Shown here: piece after piece, positions 43,152-50,246 of the stretch | How the letters are laid out: every line of letters starts with the position of its first letter | Numbering within the stretch: position 1 is the stretch's first letter | NCBI GenBank assembly: GCA_023255735.1 | Contig: JAGDVP010000010.1 | Location: 62,001-126,000 of the forward strand | Length of the DNA stretch: 64,000 nucleotides | Source: Halothiobacillus sp. | GTDB taxonomy: Bacteria > Pseudomonadota > Gammaproteobacteria > Halothiobacillales > Halothiobacillaceae | Direction: 5' to 3' | Notes under the pieces: generated by a model | Seen by the model: the letters and a program-made list of their open reading frames with translations, nothing else | The model's database searches: none | Told to the model about the DNA's origin: nothing | Translations under genes and position numbers: made by a program

Positions 43152-44158
43152 AGATCGGTTTAACCTTGCACATGGATGCCGATGTCATTCCCGATGTGGT
43201 GGCGCGTTACCGTGAGCAATTCGATTTGGTGCTACTCGCGGAACAAATGGGGCTCGATTGCATTTGGCTGACCGAGCATCATGGTCAAATTGATAGCCCA
43301 ACGCCGCGGCCTGAATTGTTTATCGCCCACGCCATGGCACGCACGCAGCGGATTAAATTTGGCACGGCGGCATTGCTGTTGGGGCAGCGCGCGCCGCTGG
43401 AGATTGCTGAAATTATCAGCATGCTGTCGGTTTTGGCGCCGCAGCGGATTCAAATTGGCTTAGCCAAAGGCGGGCCGTTTATTGCGCATCAACACATTTG
43501 GGCGGCAGCCGAGCAGCGGGGTGAGCGCTTGCTGGCCGCCTTGCCATTGCTGAAAAATTGGCTTAAAGGTCAAAAGGTTGCTGTGATTGAAGGTGGCGAA
43601 CCGGTGCCCTTGGTGCCTTATGTGTCGCAATTGGCAGACACGCCGCTCTTTGTGGCCACGCGTGACCCGGCCACAATCACGCAAGCAGCTAAGCTCGGCT
43701 TGGGTTTAATGGCCGCGCAGTTTTGGCCTGTGGCGGGGATTCGCGCCTCGGTGGCGCAATACACCATAGAGGCAGGCAAGGCACCTCGGCTTATGGTTGG
43801 GCGGGGTGTGTTGATTGATGACGATGAGCCCCGCGCTCGCCTGCGCGCGCTGGCCCATGTGAACCAAGTGCGCGCCCGTAAACACGCGGCCAAACGTGGC
43901 GGTTTATCTTCTCTGCCCCAGCCTTCGATAACCGATGCCACGCTGCCGCGGGGGATCGATAAAATTACGCTCGACAACATCGATGAATTTGCGCTCATAG
44001 GGTCGGTTGCCACCATCCGCGCAAGGCTGCCTGAGCTTTCGTCCTTGGGTGTGACTGATTTGGCGTTAAATCCTATGACCGACGATACCAGCGAGCGGTG
44101 CGAGCAACTTAATTTGATCGGCCAGTTGCTGCGGGAATTTGTTCAACATCATGATTAA
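43148..44158 (+). CDS. LLM-class flavin-dependent oxidoreductase
   Basis: The 336-residue product is a bacterial-luciferase-like TIM-barrel oxidoreductase that would use FMNH2 and oxygen. Motifs include LAEQMGLDCIWLTEHHG, ARTQRIKFGTAALLLGQRAPLEIAE and PQRIQIGLAKGGP. It is embedded between the binding protein and permease genes, overlapping both (ATGA upstream; 8 bases downstream), so it belongs to the transport operon. I recall luciferase-like proteins of the KPN_01858 type being associated with ModD-containing ABC loci, but cannot verify membership. A role in breaking down an imported chelate is speculation. Confidence 0.82.
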   Translation: MKIGLTLHMDADVIPDVVARYREQFDLVLLAEQMGLDCIWLTEHHGQIDSPTPRPELFIAHAMARTQRIKFGTAALLLGQRAPLEIAEIISMLSVLAPQRIQIGLAKGGPFIAHQHIWAAAEQRGERLLAALPLLKNWLKGQKVAVIEGGEPVPLVPYVSQLADTPLFVATRDPATITQAAKLGLGLMAAQFWPVAGIRASVAQYTIEAGKAPRLMVGRGVLIDDDEPRARLRALAHVNQVRARKHAAKRGGLSSLPQPSITDATLPRGIDKITLDNIDEFALIGSVATIRARLPELSSLGVTDLALNPMTDDTSERCEQLNLIGQLLREFVQHHD

Positions 44159-45149
44159 ATTCGGTATTTTTGGTATTTTGTTTGCTTCTCTGGCGGTGCT
44201 GGCAGGGCTGGGTATTGCGATAGGCCCCTTTGCGATGTCGCCCGGCCAGTTGGTGGGCGTTTTGATGCAGGGGCCTTTTGGCGCGCCTTCCCTGCTGCAC
44301 ACCATTGTTTGGGAAGTGCGCTTGCCCCATGTGGTCGGCGCGGTGCTGATTGGTGCCGCCTTAGCGATTTCTGGGGCGGCCTATCAGGGATTATTTATTA
44401 ATCCGCTGGTGAGCCCGGAAATTTTAGGGGTGTTGGCGGGGGCGGGTTTTGGGGCGGCGTTGGGTTTGGTTTTAAGCGATCACTTTGTCACAGTGCAACT
44501 GCTCTCGTTTATCTTTGGCTTGGTGGCAGTGGGCTTGGCCGTGCTGCTGGCTTGGCGGGTGGGCGATGAAGATGGGCTCATTGTGCTGGTGTTGGCGGGC
44601 ATGATTACCGCCGCGCTCTTTACCGCGTTGCTCTCGTTCATTAAATACACCGCTGATCCCTACGATAAACTCCCCGCCATTATTTATTGGCTTATGGGAT
44701 CCCTTGGGCAAATTACTTGGGCGCAATTGGCGTGGTCGGCGCCCGTGATTGGGCTGGCCAGTATTGGCTTAGTGCAACAAGCAGAGCGGCTCAACATTAT
44801 GAGTCAGGGCGATGAGGAGGCGCAGAGTTTGGGCGTGCCCGTGGTGCAAACGCGTATTCTCATTATCCTGCTCACCACGGTGTTGGCCTCTGTGACGGTG
44901 ATGTTGGCCGGCATGATTGCTTGGGTGGGCTTAATTGTGCCGCACCTGACCCGCTTGCTGTTGGGCGCGGATAACCGTCTGGTGCTGCCGGCCTCCTTGC
45001 TGGTGGGGGCGATTTATTTAGTGGCGGTCGATTTGCTCTCGCGCAATTTTACTTCGGTTGAAATCCCGATTGGCATTTTAACGGCCTTGATTGGCTTGCC
45101 AATCTTTGCGGGCTTACTGTTGCGCTTAGGGGCGAGCGGCTGGCGATGA
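44151..45149 (+). CDS. FecCD-family ABC transporter permease
   Basis: The 332-residue permease has about ten membrane helices and the FecCD/BtuC signature. This includes RLPHVVGAVLIGAALAISGAAYQGLFINPLVSPEILGVLAGAGFGA near residues 55-105 and EIPIGILTALIGLPIFAGLL near the C-terminus. This type II importer family moves siderophores, heme, cobalamin and, in MolBC, molybdate/tungstate. The ATG at 44151 overlaps the oxidoreductase stop; a TTG at 44139 is less likely. It overlaps the ATPase gene by 4 bases. Confidence 0.93.
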   Translation: MIKFGIFGILFASLAVLAGLGIAIGPFAMSPGQLVGVLMQGPFGAPSLLHTIVWEVRLPHVVGAVLIGAALAISGAAYQGLFINPLVSPEILGVLAGAGFGAALGLVLSDHFVTVQLLSFIFGLVAVGLAVLLAWRVGDEDGLIVLVLAGMITAALFTALLSFIKYTADPYDKLPAIIYWLMGSLGQITWAQLAWSAPVIGLASIGLVQQAERLNIMSQGDEEAQSLGVPVVQTRILIILLTTVLASVTVMLAGMIAWVGLIVPHLTRLLLGADNRLVLPASLLVGAIYLVAVDLLSRNFTSVEIPIGILTALIGLPIFAGLLLRLGASGWR

Positions 45150-45856
45150 TCCGCTGCGATCAATTATGCGGCGGTTATCGCGGCAAAGCCGTGTTTGGCC
45201 CTATCGATTTAACTTTTGAAGCGGGCAGTGTGGTGGCATTGCTTGGCGGCAACGGTTCAGGAAAAACCACCCTGCTTAAAACGATTTTAGGCTTGCGTCC
45301 GCCGCTATCGGGGGTGGTGTATTGGCAAAATAAACCCCTGCACGCGTTATCACTGGCCGAGCGCGCCCGCTTGGTGGCTTTTGTGCCGCAGCAGCATAAG
45401 GTGACCTTTGGCTTGCGGGTGCGGGATATTGTGGCCATGGGCAGCAAAGCTGGGCTCATAAAAGCCACTTCAGCAGAAGCATTGGCGCGTGCAGATGCCG
45501 CGTTAGCGCAATTAAAACAAAGCCATTTGGCTGAAAAACGCATCACCGAACTTTCGGGTGGTCAACAGCAACTCATTCTCATTGCCCGCGCTTTGGCGCA
45601 ACAAACCCCAGTTTTGGTGCTGGATGAACCGGTGAATCACCTCGATTGGGGGCATCAACAACGCTTGCTCGATTTAATCGTGCAGTTGGCCGCCACCGAG
45701 CGCACGATTATTTTCTCCACCCACCACCCCGATCACGCCAAGCGGGTGGCGCATCGCTGCGTTTTGATGCGGGCGGGGCAGGTTTTAGCTGATGGGGCTT
45801 GCGTGCAAAAGCTTACCTCCGACGCCCTTAACGATTTGTATCAATTGGATTTTTAG
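45146..45856 (+). CDS. ABC transporter ATP-binding protein, FecE/MolC-like
   Basis: The 236-residue ATPase has Walker A GGNGSGKT (34-41), the Q-loop in VAFVPQQHK, and the signature LSGGQQQ. Walker B LVLDEPVNHLDW and the switch histidine in STHHPDH are also present. It completes a type II importer with the preceding permease and binding protein. ModD starts 4 bases after its stop. Confidence 0.95.
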   Translation: MIRCDQLCGGYRGKAVFGPIDLTFEAGSVVALLGGNGSGKTTLLKTILGLRPPLSGVVYWQNKPLHALSLAERARLVAFVPQQHKVTFGLRVRDIVAMGSKAGLIKATSAEALARADAALAQLKQSHLAEKRITELSGGQQQLILIARALAQQTPVLVLDEPVNHLDWGHQQRLLDLIVQLAATERTIIFSTHHPDHAKRVAHRCVLMRAGQVLADGACVQKLTSDALNDLYQLDF

Positions 45857-45860
45857 TGCC

Positions 45861-46709
45861 ATGATTTATTTTACCACCGCAGAAATTGAGCAATGGCTCA
45901 ACGAAGATTTGCCCTTTCATGATGAAACCACCCGCGCCTTAGGCATTACAGACCAGCCAGGCTGGCTTGAGGTGCGCGCCCGCGAGTCCTCATCGATTAT
46001 CTGCGGCACTGAAGAGCTGGCCCGCATGGCCACATTGCTTGGGCTCGTGGTGCCGGTGAACCAGCCTTCTGGCTACTGCGCGCAGCAAGGCGAGCTCGTG
46101 ATGCGGTTGACGGGCACCGCAGGCAAGCTGCATCAGTGGTGGAAAGTCGCGGTCGTCATGCTGTCGCATTTAAGCGGCGTGGCGAGTGCAACCCGGCGGG
46201 TGGTGGACGCAATTCGCGTGGCTAACCCCCACATCCACTTAGCCACCACGCGAAAAGTGCCACCCGGACAGCGCAAATTAATGGTGAAAGCGGTGCTCAC
46301 CGGCGGCGGGGTGATTCATCGTTTAGGTTTATCGGAAAGCGTGCTGGTATTCGCCCAGCATCGGGCATTTATGCCGAGCGATATGAGTGTGGCTGCGATC
46401 GTGGCGCAACTGCGGCGCGAGTGCACCGAAAAACGCATCATGCTGGAGGCGGAAACAGAAGACGAAGCCATGGCACTCGTCCACGCGGGTGCGGATGTGG
46501 TTCAGTGCGATAAGCTTGCGCCCCCAATACTCAAGCGCTTGGTGCCCAAGCTTAAGGCCATCAATCCGCAGATTGTGGTATCGGCTGCCGGCGGGGTTAC
46601 CCCCGCCAATGCCGCTGAATTTGCCGCCACGGGGGTAGATTTACTCATCACCAGCAGCGTGTACCACGCACTGCCTGCCGATTTTGGTGTCACCATGGGT
46701 GCGTTCTAG
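45861..46709 (+). CDS. modD: ModD, quinolinate-phosphoribosyltransferase-like protein
   Basis: The 282-residue protein has the two-domain fold of nicotinate-nucleotide pyrophosphorylase (NadC). It carries the ModD-type central motif TTRKVPPGQRKLMVKAVL followed by HRLGLSESVLVFAQHR. The C-terminal barrel contains EAETEDEA, GADVVQCDKL and SAAGGVTPANAAEFAATGVD. ModD is encoded in molybdate transport operons of several Proteobacteria; its biochemical role is not established. The ATG at 45861 is used; the frame extends to 45792 inside the ATPase gene. NadC was considered but the HRLGLSE stretch and the transporter context favour ModD. Confidence 0.85.
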   Translation: MIYFTTAEIEQWLNEDLPFHDETTRALGITDQPGWLEVRARESSSIICGTEELARMATLLGLVVPVNQPSGYCAQQGELVMRLTGTAGKLHQWWKVAVVMLSHLSGVASATRRVVDAIRVANPHIHLATTRKVPPGQRKLMVKAVLTGGGVIHRLGLSESVLVFAQHRAFMPSDMSVAAIVAQLRRECTEKRIMLEAETEDEAMALVHAGADVVQCDKLAPPILKRLVPKLKAINPQIVVSAAGGVTPANAAEFAATGVDLLITSSVYHALPADFGVTMGAF

Positions 46710-46759: not shown

Positions 46760-46788
46760 TTGCACCCAAGCGTGGGGTCTGTGCGTAT
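46760..46788 (+). promoter_or_regulatory. Putative ECF-sigma promoter of the sigma factor gene
   Basis: TTGCA (46760-46764), 17 bases, then TGCGTAT (46782-46788). The same two blocks at the same 17-base spacing occur 107 bases before the RiPP precursor gene. The expected start would give an 80-base leader for the sigma gene. Confidence 0.55.
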
Positions 46789-46874
46789 TCTTGCTTGGAG
46801 AATCGGCGGGGTAAAAGGCGTGTCTTTATTACCGCGTTTGAATTTAGCTTGAAAACGTAGCAGGAATAAGCCCC

Positions 46875-47510
46875 ATGAGTGTTCAGAGCCCAGAGCCGCC
46901 CCCTTTGCCCCAATCCATTCTTGAGGCCGATGCCCGTTTACCCGATTGGCTTGCCGCTTGCGCTGCGGGCGATCGCGCTGCGTTTAATCGATTGTATCAA
47001 GCCACATCCGGGCGATTATATGGCCTTTGTTTGCGGATTTTGCGTGAGGAGGGTCGGGCGCAAGAATGCTTGCAAGATGTATTTTTGGCCGTATGGCAGC
47101 AAGCGGGCCGGTTCGATCCGGCGCGCGCCTCGGCGATGACCTGGCTTGCCGCCATTACGCACCACCGTGCGATTAGCCTGTCGCGGCGTTTTACCCGTGA
47201 ACTCACCGCCGATGACTGGACCCTATTTCTTACCCACGCCGAGTGCCCCGATCGGACAGATTTGCCTGATGCCGCCCAGCATGCCCCCGATCACGATTGG
47301 CATTTGCTGGATCGAGGGCGGTTGCAAGAATGCTTAGATGCCTTGCGTGCCGAACCGCGCGCGGCGGTGCAGTATGCTTTTTGGCAGGGCGATACCTATC
47401 AAGAAATTGCCGATAAGCTCGCCACCTCGCTGAACACGGTTAAAAGCTGGGTGCGTCGGGCGCTGGTTGAATTAAAAAGCTGTATTGGCCGTGGAGTGAT
47501 GCCCTCATGA
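46875..47510 (+). CDS. ECF-type RNA polymerase sigma factor
   Basis: The 211-residue product has region sigma-2 at about 25-100, with FNRLYQATSGRLYGLCLRIL, AQECLQDVFLAVWQQAGRF and TWLAAITHHRAISLSRR. Region sigma-4 lies at about 150-205, with AFWQGDTYQEIADKLATSLNTVKSWVRRAL. It resembles the SigK/RpoE-like group usually paired with RskA-type anti-sigma factors. Its stop overlaps the anti-sigma start by 4 bases. It likely drives its own gene and the downstream bufA-like gene, which share a promoter motif. Confidence 0.93.
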   Translation: MSVQSPEPPPLPQSILEADARLPDWLAACAAGDRAAFNRLYQATSGRLYGLCLRILREEGRAQECLQDVFLAVWQQAGRFDPARASAMTWLAAITHHRAISLSRRFTRELTADDWTLFLTHAECPDRTDLPDAAQHAPDHDWHLLDRGRLQECLDALRAEPRAAVQYAFWQGDTYQEIADKLATSLNTVKSWVRRALVELKSCIGRGVMPS

Positions 47511-48190
47511 ATCAAACGACCCCGCAAGAATATGTCTTAGGCTTATTAGATCAAGACGATGATGCGGCTTTTGAGCACCTGCTGAAAAGCCAAACTATCT
47601 ATCAAAAAGAAACCGCCGAATGGTCGCTGATAGTCGCCCAAGCTATATCAAGCAAAACGGATGCGCGCACGCCACCTGGCTGGCTGTGGACGCGCATTGA
47701 GCGGCAAATCACCGCGCAAGCGCAAGCGATTGAAGCCGCCAGTCAATTTGGCTGGCGCATGGTGGCCGCGTTCTTGGCGATGGTGGGTTTGGTGGTGGCC
47801 ATCAGCATCACGGTACCCAAAACGCTGCCGTTTAGTGGGCATCATGAGGCGGTATTGGCGTTGAGTGAAACCGGCGCACCAGCCTGGCAAGTTCAGGGCA
47901 ACTTTAAAGACAACGAGCTCAATATTCTGGTGACCCGCAGTGGCCAGGTGGCGGCAGGGCGAACGCCCGTTTTATGGCTGGCCACCCAAGGCGGGCAAAC
48001 GATTGCCGTCGGTCGGCTGCCCACCCAAGTGGGGCAAACCCTGCGGGTGTCGCCCGCGTTGTGGCAGGGCGACATGCAAGCGACAAAACTCGCAATTAGT
48101 TTGGAGCCGGCGCAAGCGAGCATTGGCAACAAACCGCAGGGGCCTGTGGTTTTGATCGAGTCGTGGCATTCATTGCCGGCGGCTTCTTAG
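47507..48190 (+). CDS. Membrane anti-sigma factor, RskA-like
   Basis: The 227-residue protein has a cytoplasmic N-terminal segment (1-80, EYVLGLLDQDDDAAFEHLL) and one membrane helix at about 85-103. The periplasmic domain resembles the anti-sigma-K (RskA) C-terminal domain (PVLWLATQGGQTIAVGRLP). It should hold the sigma factor inactive until an envelope signal arrives. No zinc-binding HxxxCxxC motif is present. Translation is coupled to the sigma gene. Confidence 0.88.
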   Translation: MNQTTPQEYVLGLLDQDDDAAFEHLLKSQTIYQKETAEWSLIVAQAISSKTDARTPPGWLWTRIERQITAQAQAIEAASQFGWRMVAAFLAMVGLVVAISITVPKTLPFSGHHEAVLALSETGAPAWQVQGNFKDNELNILVTRSGQVAAGRTPVLWLATQGGQTIAVGRLPTQVGQTLRVSPALWQGDMQATKLAISLEPAQASIGNKPQGPVVLIESWHSLPAAS

Positions 48191-48209
48191 GTTTATTTTT
48201 CAACGCGGG

Positions 48210-48238
48210 TTGCAACTTTTAGCGCGCACCTTGCGTAT
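48210..48238 (+). promoter_or_regulatory. Putative ECF-sigma promoter of the RiPP precursor gene
   Basis: TTGCA (48210-48214), 17 bases, TGCGTAT (48232-48238), the same pair and spacing as upstream of the sigma gene at 46760. The expected start lies about 75 bases before the precursor ATG. Confidence 0.55.
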
Positions 48239-48320
48239 ATAGCTTGCGGGGGCTATAACTTAAAGGCCTGCCGCAATCCTTATCTGATTGTTTTTTTGTA
48301 CTTATTAGGAGTGTGATTCG

Positions 48321-48548
48321 ATGAAAACGCGTTCAATTCAAAAAACTTTATTAGCTTCAACCGTTATCGCCGGCTGCGTTGCCGCAGGCGCTGCGATGGC
48401 GGCCACAAACCAAAGTCCTTTTGCGAGCAGCCATACCCAAGGCAGCAGTGTGCAATTGGCTGAAATGTCTTGCGGTGGCGCGGCTTCGTGCGGTGGCAGC
48501 ATGAAAAAAGATAAATCAGCCGATAAAACGGATGCCAATAAAAGCTAG
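48321..48548 (+). CDS. Secreted two-cysteine precursor peptide of an MNIO RiPP locus (bufferin/HvfA-like)
   Basis: The 75-residue product has a signal peptide (1-27, ending AAMA). The mature part is about 48 residues, rich in Ser/Ala/Gly/Lys, with only two cysteines in SCGGAASCGG (C51, C57) and a Lys/Asp-rich tail. A lipobox-like VIAGC (C19) within the signal peptide makes a lipoprotein form possible. It lies directly upstream of DUF692 and DUF2063 genes. This is where metal-binding precursors modified on cysteines (BufA1/BufA2, HvfA) are found. It lacks the four-cysteine BufA pattern and the EGKCG repeats of HvfA. A good AGGAG site precedes the ATG. Confidence 0.82.
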   Translation: MKTRSIQKTLLASTVIAGCVAAGAAMAATNQSPFASSHTQGSSVQLAEMSCGGAASCGGSMKKDKSADKTDANKS

Positions 48549-48574
48549 GGTTTAAGTTTGTGATGCAATCACTA

Positions 48575-48609
48575 CGCGCCGAGTCGATCGCCTCATCGGC
48601 GCGTTTTTT
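48575..48609 (+). terminator. Attenuating terminator between precursor and MNIO gene
   Basis: CGCGCCGA (48575-48582) and TCGGCGCG (48596-48603) form an 8-bp stem followed by six T. It ends 15 bases before the MNIO start, so partial read-through would give more precursor than enzyme. Confidence 0.85.
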
Positions 48610-48624
48610 ATTGGAAGGTGCGCG

Positions 48625-49494
48625 GTGGCAAATTTTCAAGCTTCCAAATTAAGCGATGTCGGGCTCGGATTGCGGCGGGGCATGTTGATGCACGAGATCG
48701 AAACCACAACCCCCGATTTGGATTTTTTAGAAGTAGCACCCGAAAACTGGATGCGCTTAGGCGGTGCGGTCAAGCGCCGCTTTGAAGCCTTGCTCGAACA
48801 TTATCCGCTCTATACGCATGGGTTGTCGCTTTCGATTGGCGGCCCCGCCCCGTTAGATTGGGCGTTTATTGATGCGATTAAGCAGTTTCTCGATCGCTAT
48901 CAGCCCGTGCTGTATAGCGAGCATCTCTCGTTTTGCAGCGATCATGCACATCTCTATGATTTAATGCCGATTCCGTTCACCGAAGATGCGGTTAACCATG
49001 TTGTCGCGCGTATCCAACAAGTGCAAGATCGGTTGGGGCGGCGCTTGGTTTTAGAGAATGTTTCGTACTACACCGCGCCCACGGCGGAGTTATCCGAGCT
49101 TGAGTTTATTACCACCATTCTGGCGCGTGCCGATTGCGATTTGCTCTTGGATGTGAACAACGTGTACGTCAATAGCGTCAATCACCAATACGACCCGCGT
49201 GCCTTTATTAATGCCCTACCGCCGGCTCGCGTGCGCTATGTGCATGTGGCTGGGCATTGGCAGATTGAACCTGATTTAATTATCGATACCCACGGCGCGC
49301 CGGTGAGCGACCCGGTGTGGGATTTGCTCAGCCACACTTATACCCGGTTGGGTGCCGTGCCCACCTTGCTGGAGCGGGATTTTGAAATCCCCCCACTTAG
49401 CGAGTTAATGGGCGAAGTCGCGCACATTCGCGCACTCGCCGCCAGCGCCCAGGCCAAGCGTGGCCTCGGCCTTGCCGAGGGCAGCCTTGCATGA
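48625..49494 (+). CDS. bufB: DUF692 multinuclear non-heme iron oxidase (BufB/MbnB/HvfB-like)
   Basis: MNIO enzymes use a di- or tri-iron centre and oxygen to rebuild cysteine residues of peptide precursors into heterocycles. The 289-residue TIM barrel shows the family's metal-ligand motifs in order. These are FLEVAPENWM (35-43), HGLSLSIGG (65-73), YSEHLSF (97-103), LLDVNNVYVN (174-183), VHVAGH (206-211), DTHGAPV (221-227) and LLERDFE (248-254). The start is a GTG with GGAAGG upstream. The gene overlaps its DUF2063 partner by 4 bases. Its substrate is presumably the upstream two-cysteine peptide. Confidence 0.92.
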   Translation: MANFQASKLSDVGLGLRRGMLMHEIETTTPDLDFLEVAPENWMRLGGAVKRRFEALLEHYPLYTHGLSLSIGGPAPLDWAFIDAIKQFLDRYQPVLYSEHLSFCSDHAHLYDLMPIPFTEDAVNHVVARIQQVQDRLGRRLVLENVSYYTAPTAELSELEFITTILARADCDLLLDVNNVYVNSVNHQYDPRAFINALPPARVRYVHVAGHWQIEPDLIIDTHGAPVSDPVWDLLSHTYTRLGAVPTLLERDFEIPPLSELMGEVAHIRALAASAQAKRGLGLAEGSLA

Positions 49495-50246
49495 CTGATT
49501 TTCAAAGCCTGCAACGGCAATTTGCCGCCTTTATTCGCGATCCGCACAACACCCCGCCGCCGCCCGGCTGTGATGCCGCGCGCATGCAGCACTATCATCA
49601 ATTATTTTTTAACAACTTCGATGGCGTGCTTGAACTCGCCTACCCAAGGTTGTGTGCTGAGGTCGGCGCCGCCCCTTGGCTTGAATTAACCCGACTTTTT
49701 TTTCAAACCGTACCGCAGCACTCTCCCTATTTAAGCGATGTGCCCGCGCAGTTTGCCGAATTTCTTGATGCACAAACGGCTCAGTCTTTAAGCGATGGGC
49801 AAATTGAGCTCGCGGCATTTGAGCTCGCGTGTTTTGAGCTTAAAACCGCAGATGATGAACCGCGCCGCACCGATGAGGCCGATCAGCCGCCTCAAGGGGC
49901 TGCGCTCAAACCAACTTGGGTGATTAACCCCGACACGATCTTGTTTGAAAGCCTGTACCCTGTGCACGATCCCAACTGGGATCCCCGCGGCACAGCGCAA
50001 ACCCCCACGTTTTTGGTGTTGGTGCGCGATCCTGCTGGCCTCGTGCAAACCTATGCCGTCTCTTTGGCCAGCGCGCGCCTGTTGCACTTAATTCATGCCC
50101 ATCCCTGGCAACCCTTGGCTGTGGTGATCGACGCGTTAGCCCAAGAGCTCAACCAACCGGCCGCACGGCTATTGCCGCTTGCGCAGCAACAAATTACCCA
50201 ATGGTTCGATGCGCACGTTTTACTGGCGGCAGGTGTGGCGGGTTAA
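49491..50246 (+). CDS. bufC: DUF2063 MNIO partner protein (BufC/HvfC-like)
   Basis: The 251-residue protein has the DUF2063 N-terminal domain (about 5-95, with [32 protein letters not shown] and [12 protein letters not shown]). It also has a C-terminal domain resembling the RiPP recognition part of MbnC-type partners. Such proteins hold the precursor for the DUF692 enzyme. It overlaps the MNIO gene by 4 bases. No DoxX-type fourth gene (BufD/HvfD) follows; radC comes next, 56 bases on. Confidence 0.88.

Follow-up and report, generated by a model that had tools for sequence, protein, structure and literature searches.

What kind of peptide is made when a multinuclear nonheme iron-dependent oxidative enzyme (MNIO) is paired with a secreted precursor carrying two mature cysteines, and what switches its production on? 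The question is raised by a 64,000-nucleotide stretch of DNA from the sulfur-oxidising bacterium Halothiobacillus sp. (assembly GCA_023255735.1, contig JAGDVP010000010.1, positions 62,001 to 126,000; hereafter the window), in which five co-directional open reading frames (ORFs) encode an extracytoplasmic function (ECF) sigma factor, an anti-sigma factor, a short peptide, an MNIO and a DUF2063 protein, followed by radC. A preliminary description, made from the letters of this stretch, had read the five genes as a sigma-controlled locus for a ribosomally synthesized and post-translationally modified peptide (RiPP) and proposed that the peptide might define a separate minimal class. All five ORFs were recovered in one direction, Pfam and NCBIfam back the assignment of each except the peptide, and the locus is real and conserved. 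The reading that fits the peptide best is a diverged, single-cassette captophorin (a 5-thiooxazole copper peptide), not a new class, and in part of the genus its operon appears to belong to a SigK-like regulon.

The enzyme pair is of the HvfB/HvfC type. The MNIO, which matches the MbnB_TglH_ChrH profile (E 1.9e-106), scores 410 bits against NCBIfam HvfB (cut-off 360) and falls under the cut-offs of BufB (289 bits vs 310) and MbnB (57 bits vs 325), and its partner scores 162 bits against HvfC (cut-off 142). The locus thereby holds the HvfB-family MNIO and HvfC-family partner of the EGKCG/oxazolin (HvfA) class, as well as the MNIO–PME1 pair with a Cys-bearing secreted precursor expected of a captophorin (signal peptide read by eye), and the earlier call of an MNIO RiPP locus stood. 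Residues R17 R18 and D252 F253 of the MNIO match those of three aligned EGKCG-associated enzymes (L079, L094, L085). Aligned Buf1-like enzymes (L153, L154; from the same genus as the window, with precursors called DUF2282-like by eye) carry WDN or WDS, and Cys-Lys-like enzymes (L155, L157, L158; precursors likewise assigned by eye) carry RDD. In FonB, Arg15, Arg16 and Phe250 are reported near the substrate, with Asp249 as the likely base, and Asp replaces the FonB-type Phe in Cys-Lys enzymes (PMC13097082). We also surveyed named loci that carry a related MNIO, taking the best 80 of 526, a set made up of the nearest relatives rather than drawn at random. Among the survey MNIO ORFs parsed by script, RDF was present in 72/72 and LRR in 63/72, including loci later dropped, which makes these residues markers of the enzyme group rather than of the precursor. 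By sequence, the closest solved structure to the MNIO is 3bww; a phmmer search of the partner against solved structures gave nothing at E ≤ 0.001. Two congeners, G004 and G006, encode one further MNIO, next to a multi-Cys precursor judged DUF2282-like by eye (L153, L154).

The peptide has no match in Pfam and a weak, unrelated-looking match under cut-off in NCBIfam. It starts with MKTRSIQ, has an N-terminal hydrophobic signal region to about A27 that ends in AMA, and continues as ATNQSPFASSHTQGSSVQLAEMSCGGAASCGGSMKKDKSADKTDANKS, the extent of the signal region and the cleavage site being read by eye; SPF-x12-AE, the core EMSCGGAASCGG and a K/D-rich tail make up the rest. Ser precedes Cys in the core, and the spacing is C-x5-C. 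As Cys19, in the signal region, is absent from the peptides of nine congeners, only Cys51 and Cys57 are conserved, the two mature cysteines that had been pointed out. In a nine-sequence alignment, F34, S36, C51 G52 and C57 G58 were the invariant mature positions, so that the alignment of the cysteine region proposed at the outset leaves both Cys-Gly pairs unchanged throughout. Nonsynonymous divergence (dN) lies far under synonymous divergence (dS) against both G003 (dN 0.038, dS 0.683) and G005 (dN 0.047, dS 0.666), which indicates that the peptide gene is under purifying selection and is not a chance ORF.

Searching for short precursors upstream of DUF692 genes, as had also been suggested, gave a version of the precursor 5′ of the MNIO in 10/10 Halothiobacillus genomes and at 10/10 MNIO loci of a second genus of the family, here g4 (11 genomes searched, one of which, 64% complete, had no MNIO match). 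The MNIO loci of G013 and G017, from another genus of the same family, were left out of the precursor counts. Two mature Cys occur in 16 of the 20 precursors; those of G001, G002 and G009 carry four and that of G008 three, within SCGANMKK-type repeats. In g4 the peptides have AEMACG[AS]G[QK]CG, whose Cys are spaced as in EGKCGEGKCG, and one of them matches the window peptide at a BLASTP E of 4e-16, signal region included. The survey set was reduced by 4 loci of the window's own genus, 5 at which no upstream ORF qualified as a candidate and 18 that failed our precursor rule. That rule demanded at least two Cys-Gly motifs, so precursors may be concealed among the 18, and the Cys-Gly count follows in part from the selection. 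This left 53 EGKCG-like precursors with between 2 and 16 Cys; one, from a Panacagrimonas metagenome-assembled genome (L080), has just two, in SKCGEGKCG.

The two sets were compared, with 18 of the 20 two-genera precursors counted (G018 and G025 of g4 were left out here and in the dN/dS and relaxed-motif comparisons). Gly follows every Cys in the 18 (43/43) and in the 53 survey precursors (440/440, rule-selected for Cys-Gly). The residue before Cys is Lys for 394/440 survey Cys and Ser, Ala or Gln for 42/43 in the two genera. The distance from PF to the first Cys is 16 residues in 12/18 two-genera and 16–17 residues in 22/53 survey precursors; 2/18 and 17/53, respectively, have no PF match. The relatives form a series that begins with EGKCG repeats, passes by way of EGSCG and SCGANMKK and ends at EMSCGGAASCGG, and since this series reaches the window core and the enzyme keeps the EGKCG-type MNIO residues, we read the peptide as a diverged single-cassette captophorin. 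At 12/80 survey loci (L078, L084, L089, L090, L091, L097, L107, L134, L135, L136, L139 and L147; 8 named Methylophaga), the best upstream candidate is a secreted-looking protein of 249–300 residues with a conserved [LM]CGC[PK]I and no EGKCG peptide; either a protein substrate or the product of an unrelated gene is conceivable.

Characterized enzymes give some idea of what such a core would allow. FonBC is reported to have modified a two-repeat substrate and not a one-repeat one, and to have accepted Ala, Arg or Thr before Cys and hardly Glu or Phe (PMC13097082), and a single two-Cys MmrA cassette lost 8 H, its reduced product binding Cu(I) (PMC12538549). This tolerance, together with the MmrA cassette, makes a two-site Ser-Cys-Gly core a plausible MNIO substrate. 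The locus would then make a small secreted captophorin. Its HvfC-like partner would recruit the leader of the 75-residue precursor to the HvfB-like MNIO, which would oxidise both Cys of the core, together in each case with the carbonyl of the residue before it, into 5-thiooxazoles, with a predicted loss of 4 H per Cys and 8 in total. With its Sec signal the product would reach the periplasm, and its two thiolates may there coordinate Cu(I) or some other soft metal and lessen stress from metals or oxidants. The SigK-like sigma factor would turn on production once the RskA-type anti-sigma factor releases it, presumably in response to an inducing signal, and would also drive its own gene and a few others. 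Taken as a whole, this explanation, a captophorin under SigK-like control, strikes us as probable.

The regulatory half of this explanation starts from the sigma factor itself. Its best solved relative by sequence is 4nqw SigK, in which Cys residues align to C153 and C203; these lie 50 residues apart, as do C133 and C183 of SigK (PMC7509140). An RskA C-terminal domain adjoins this sigma with its two SigK cysteines, the combination that marks SigK–RskA pairs; the NCBIfam SigK model scores it under cut-off (144.6 bits vs 226). The sigma gene is present in G000, G001, G002, G005, G008 and G009, arranged divergently in G001, G002 and G009 and on another contig in G008. It was not found at E ≤ 1e-20 in G003, G004, G006 and G007, all of which keep the peptide operon. 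In G003, a short contig (L032:1293-1764) lacks the sigma gene as well as the beginning of the anti-sigma gene, and the sigma promoter motif stands directly before the remaining anti-sigma; the absence could be a loss or an assembly fault. G007 has only sigma and anti-sigma fragments (L034:4265-4485), next to a peptide operon that is complete. At 76 survey loci outside the genus, no similar sigma turned up in flanking stretches of up to 3 kb, and for g4 the sigma was looked for near the locus.

A promoter motif connects sigma and peptide genes. Its narrow form, TTGCAMC-N17-CGTATW, was derived by reading two intergenic regions (46760-46789 and 48210-48239) and has 3 exact matches in the whole assembly (reversed control 0), the third of which, antisense inside a 725-residue ORF, was taken as chance. 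A relaxed form made after reading further promoters, TGCAHC-N17-CGTA, lies at most 300 nucleotides from the precursor start at 7/18 loci (the six sigma-bearing genomes and G003) and 5′ of the sigma gene in 6/6 sigma-bearing genomes; it was not found at the 8 g4 loci. Across L032–L051 and the window (492,918 positions, both strands) it occurs 13 times, against 0 for its reverse, and all 13 occurrences are at these promoters: 7 at precursor genes, 5 at sigma genes and 1 at the leftover sigma promoter of G003. An extended form, TGCAHCCRA-N14-CGTA, matches 4, 3, 4, 4, 4 and 3 times in G000, G001, G002, G005, G008 and G009, 4 times in G003 and 0 times in G004, G006 and G007, with 2 reversed-control matches over all 10 genomes. 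Earlier claims of sigma control thus gain from a conserved motif at both the sigma and the precursor genes, to the extent that motif scans can support them.

Extended-motif matches lie 5′ of the genes for the sigma factor, the precursor, an alpha/beta-hydrolase, a protein resembling a flavin adenine dinucleotide (FAD) oxidoreductase (named by eye) and a DUF3034 protein; a cytochrome-like lipoprotein has one upstream in G000 only, and two matches, one each in G002 and G003, have no assigned gene. In the window's own genome, the motif stands about 40–60 nucleotides before the start codon of three predicted sigma targets: the lipoprotein, the hydrolase and the DUF3034 protein (L161, L162, L163). 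The hydrolase, an esterase (E ≤ 1e-40), occurs in 6/6 sigma-bearing genomes and G003 and not in G004, G006 or G007. The FAD oxidoreductase (E ≤ 1e-30) likewise occurs in 6/6 and is missing from the latter three; in G001 it is split over two contigs, one piece carrying a stop, and in G003 it is a contig-end fragment only. The extended motif precedes it with 0 or 1 mismatch in all six sigma-bearing genomes, in G001 before the 5′ piece. The peptide operon is found in all 10 genus genomes, including G004, G006 and G007, which lack both genes. From the motif, the co-distribution and the SigK likeness we therefore predict that a SigK-like regulon includes the peptide operon in part of the genus. This is the clearest new result of the analysis, and we consider it a well-supported prediction.

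Several observations weigh against the combined account. Ser replaces, in the window peptide, the Lys that precedes 394/440 survey Cys, and the two core Cys are 5 residues apart instead of 4. A leader–core profile comparison (leader plus first repeat) with EGKCG precursors gives the peptide a weak score (7.6 bits, E 0.17); 0/49 scored shuffles were as high, and in the same test 1 to 4 shuffles equalled or beat the real score for 10/18 precursors. The relaxed motif has 9 matches in the window's own genome vs 6 in the reversed control, it was derived from these very sites and loosened after more promoters had been read, and the genomes are relatives of one another. G003 has the motif though not the sigma gene; in G007, where sigma relics are all that is left, a near match to the precursor motif persists (2 mismatches to the narrow form); and the window's own precursor promoter fits the relaxed, not the extended, form. 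Other members of the predicted regulon carry no copper hint.

Three other explanations were weighed. Both the pre-Cys residue and the Cys spacing depart from EGKCG, and PMC13097082 leaves unsettled whether 5-thiooxazole is the only MNIO–PME1 product, so the enzyme might put another modification on the Lys-less core (e.g. an oxazolone-thioamide, or a single ring) and yield a different RiPP; with enzyme residues that match the aligned EGKCG-associated enzymes, and with Ala and Thr before Cys accepted by FonBC (PMC13097082), we think this unlikely. That sigma and anti-sigma are mere neighbours without control over the peptide would suit the four genomes that keep the peptide operon without a sigma gene at E ≤ 1e-20 (G003, G004, G006, G007) and the lack of a similar sigma in flanks of up to 3 kb at the 76 survey loci outside the genus; yet the motif is common to both promoters in 6/6 sigma-bearing genomes and holds where the sigma gene is divergent (G001, G002, G009) or on a separate contig (G008), which makes simple proximity very unlikely. 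The peptide could, finally, be unmodified or a vestigial secreted peptide whose MNIO acts on a substrate encoded elsewhere in the genome, as its want of a canonical motif and an assembly 93.5% complete might suggest. Purifying selection and the recurrence of the precursor 5′ of the MNIO at 20 loci of two genera argue otherwise, and the 2.06-Mb assembly contains a single MNIO, no EGKCG-type DNA and no DUF2282 protein; a different precursor elsewhere, which the preliminary description had allowed for, finds no support there, and we hold this explanation to be highly improbable.

The coordinates of the locus are given in Table 1. The MNIOs of two named Halothiobacillus relatives (L073 and L074) are 88 and 91% identical to that of the window, and a radC homologue lies 3′ of the locus in the window and in several relatives. 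The fold at the hairpin between precursor and MNIO genes is ordinary for an intergenic sequence (z-score 0.30), terminator-like sites in the region number 4 vs 6.1 in shuffles, and a sigma-70 promoter scan was likewise not above shuffles; a similar hairpin is seen in G005 and not clearly in most other relatives. Just 5′ of the locus (44139-46709) lie genes for a FecCD permease, an ATP-binding cassette (ABC) ATPase and a quinolinate phosphoribosyltransferase-like protein, which we take to be ModD-like. Among the 20 loci compared, the last adjoins the locus only in G003 (as fragments) and G005.

Table 1. Features of the peptide locus, in window coordinates.
Feature	Position	Strand	Basis
ECF sigma factor, SigK-like	46875..47510	+	Pfam Sigma70_r2 and r4_2; best solved relative 4nqw SigK
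RskA-type anti-sigma factor, without Cys	47507..48190	+	RskA_C 33.6 bits (cut-off 29.4)
Precursor peptide, 75 residues	48321..48548	+	no Pfam match
Predicted two-site core, E48 to G59	48462..48497	+	both Cys-Gly invariant in nine-sequence alignment; modification predicted
Residues predicted as modified, C51 and C57	48471-48473, 48489-48491	+	inferred
Terminator-like hairpin and T-run in precursor/MNIO gap, possible attenuator	48575..48610	+	weak
HvfB-family MNIO (DUF692), GTG start, R17 R18 and D252 F253	48625..49494	+	profiles and alignment
HvfC-family partner protein, DUF2063 and NGO1945_C domain	49491..50246	+	Pfam, NCBIfam
Promoter-like motif TTGCACC-N17-CGTATT, 5′ of sigma gene (predicted autoregulation)	46760..46789	+	exact match
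Promoter-like motif TTGCAAC-N17-CGTATA, 5′ of precursor	48210..48239	+	motif scans

If captophorin it is, two modified Cys would be near the smallest number able to chelate a metal as a pair, and owing to this near-minimal size the natural peptide would lend itself to work on structure and stoichiometry; with EGKCG peptides, aggregation has stood in the way of such work (PMC13097082). Since the two related genera retain hardly any Lys before Cys, these peptides also provide a natural test of the core residues needed by HvfB-type enzymes. The predicted SigK-like regulon is largely present or absent as a set, with the peptide operon persisting, which offers a way to ask how a metal peptide joins different stress responses. 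A bolder version, which we put forward tentatively and consider more doubtful than not, is that a natural single-cassette captophorin evolved in Halothiobacillus and the second family genus, that its two thiooxazoles clamp one Cu(I) to give a defined 1:1 chelator of methanobactin-like function, in contrast to the multi-site, aggregating EGKCG buffers, and that it was later captured in Halothiobacillus by a SigK–RskA redox regulon. Were this true, a copper peptide would be tied to an oxidant or envelope stress response.

Among known classes, strict membership of the EGKCG family does not apply: we looked for the repeated EGKCG motif that defines it, and the core reads EMSCGGAASCGG instead, which agrees with the earlier remark that EGKCG repeats are lacking. 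The peptide nevertheless very probably works like a member of that family, and the separate minimal class proposed at first is rejected, as enzyme type and residues, HvfB/HvfC scores and intermediate precursors tie the peptide to EGKCG captophorins. Bufferin 1 (DUF2282, four conserved Cys, BufB) does not fit, the peptide having no Pfam match, the assembly no PF10048 and the enzyme 289 bits where BufB demands 310; the absence of a BufA pattern was therefore rightly noted. Bufferin 2 would call for 6 or 12 Cys together with an enzyme of Cys-Lys type, whereas we find 2 mature Cys and RDF, not RDD. For the CxxxxC precursors of PMC12452194, judged on spacing and not on that paper's profile, C-x5-C takes the place of C-x4-C, and an MbnB-type enzyme as in methanobactin loci is excluded by 57 bits vs a cut-off of 325.

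Closest in layout are oxazolin (HvfA-HvfBC-HvfX of Haemophilus influenzae) and the EGKCG captophorins fontiphorin and gonophorin, which share the precursor–MNIO–PME1 order, the HvfB/HvfC families, a signal peptide, in many cases a PF leader, and Gly after Cys. The window peptide differs from them in having two Cys in an SCGG context and not many EGKCG motifs, in the type of sigma beside it and in lacking HvfX/DoxX. As first stated, no DoxX-type gene follows the locus, and PF07681 (E ≤ 0.001) was not found anywhere in the assembly, but this is not distinctive, since the fontiphorin cluster, described as MNIO, PME1 and precursor only, is without DoxX too (PMC13097082). Bulbicupramide (MmrA cassette-1, Microbulbifer) indicates that a two-Cys cassette suffices, its reduced two-thiooxazole product having bound Cu(I) (PMC12538549); it is a shortened construct of a multi-cassette EGKCG precursor, whereas the window gene is naturally single-cassette. 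The main texts of PMC12452194 and PMC13097082 do not name Halothiobacillus, and Table S2 of the former, with hundreds of precursors of 1–18 Cys, may list the peptide.

ECF control of MNIO–DUF2063 operons is already known. For the meningococcal operon NMB2140-NMB2145, we partly presume the identities of the individual genes. Reported cases are the sigmaF bufferin locus of Caulobacter (PMC3511200), the Neisseria sigmaE operon just named (PMC3240639) and the RpoE2 regulon of H. influenzae (PMC7907618), whose DoxX cluster would, from its gene content, be the hvf operon. As described there, these loci have other anti-sigma types (DUF1109, MseR and HrsE) in place of RskA, and the Caulobacter sigmaF motif reads GTAACC-N16-CGAA, in contrast to TGCAHC-N17-CGTA in Halothiobacillus. 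SigK–RskA (ECF18/ECF19) systems resemble the window pair in the two conserved sigma cysteines, the RskA partner and the predicted autoregulation, M. tuberculosis sigK being autoregulated via the Rv0449c promoter (PMC7509140); unlike them, the window sigma has an MNIO peptide operon among its predicted targets. Within the literature searched, two things are new: a two-site core that is mostly without Lys and is conserved in the majority of members of both genera, and the predicted control by SigK/RskA, together with its motif.

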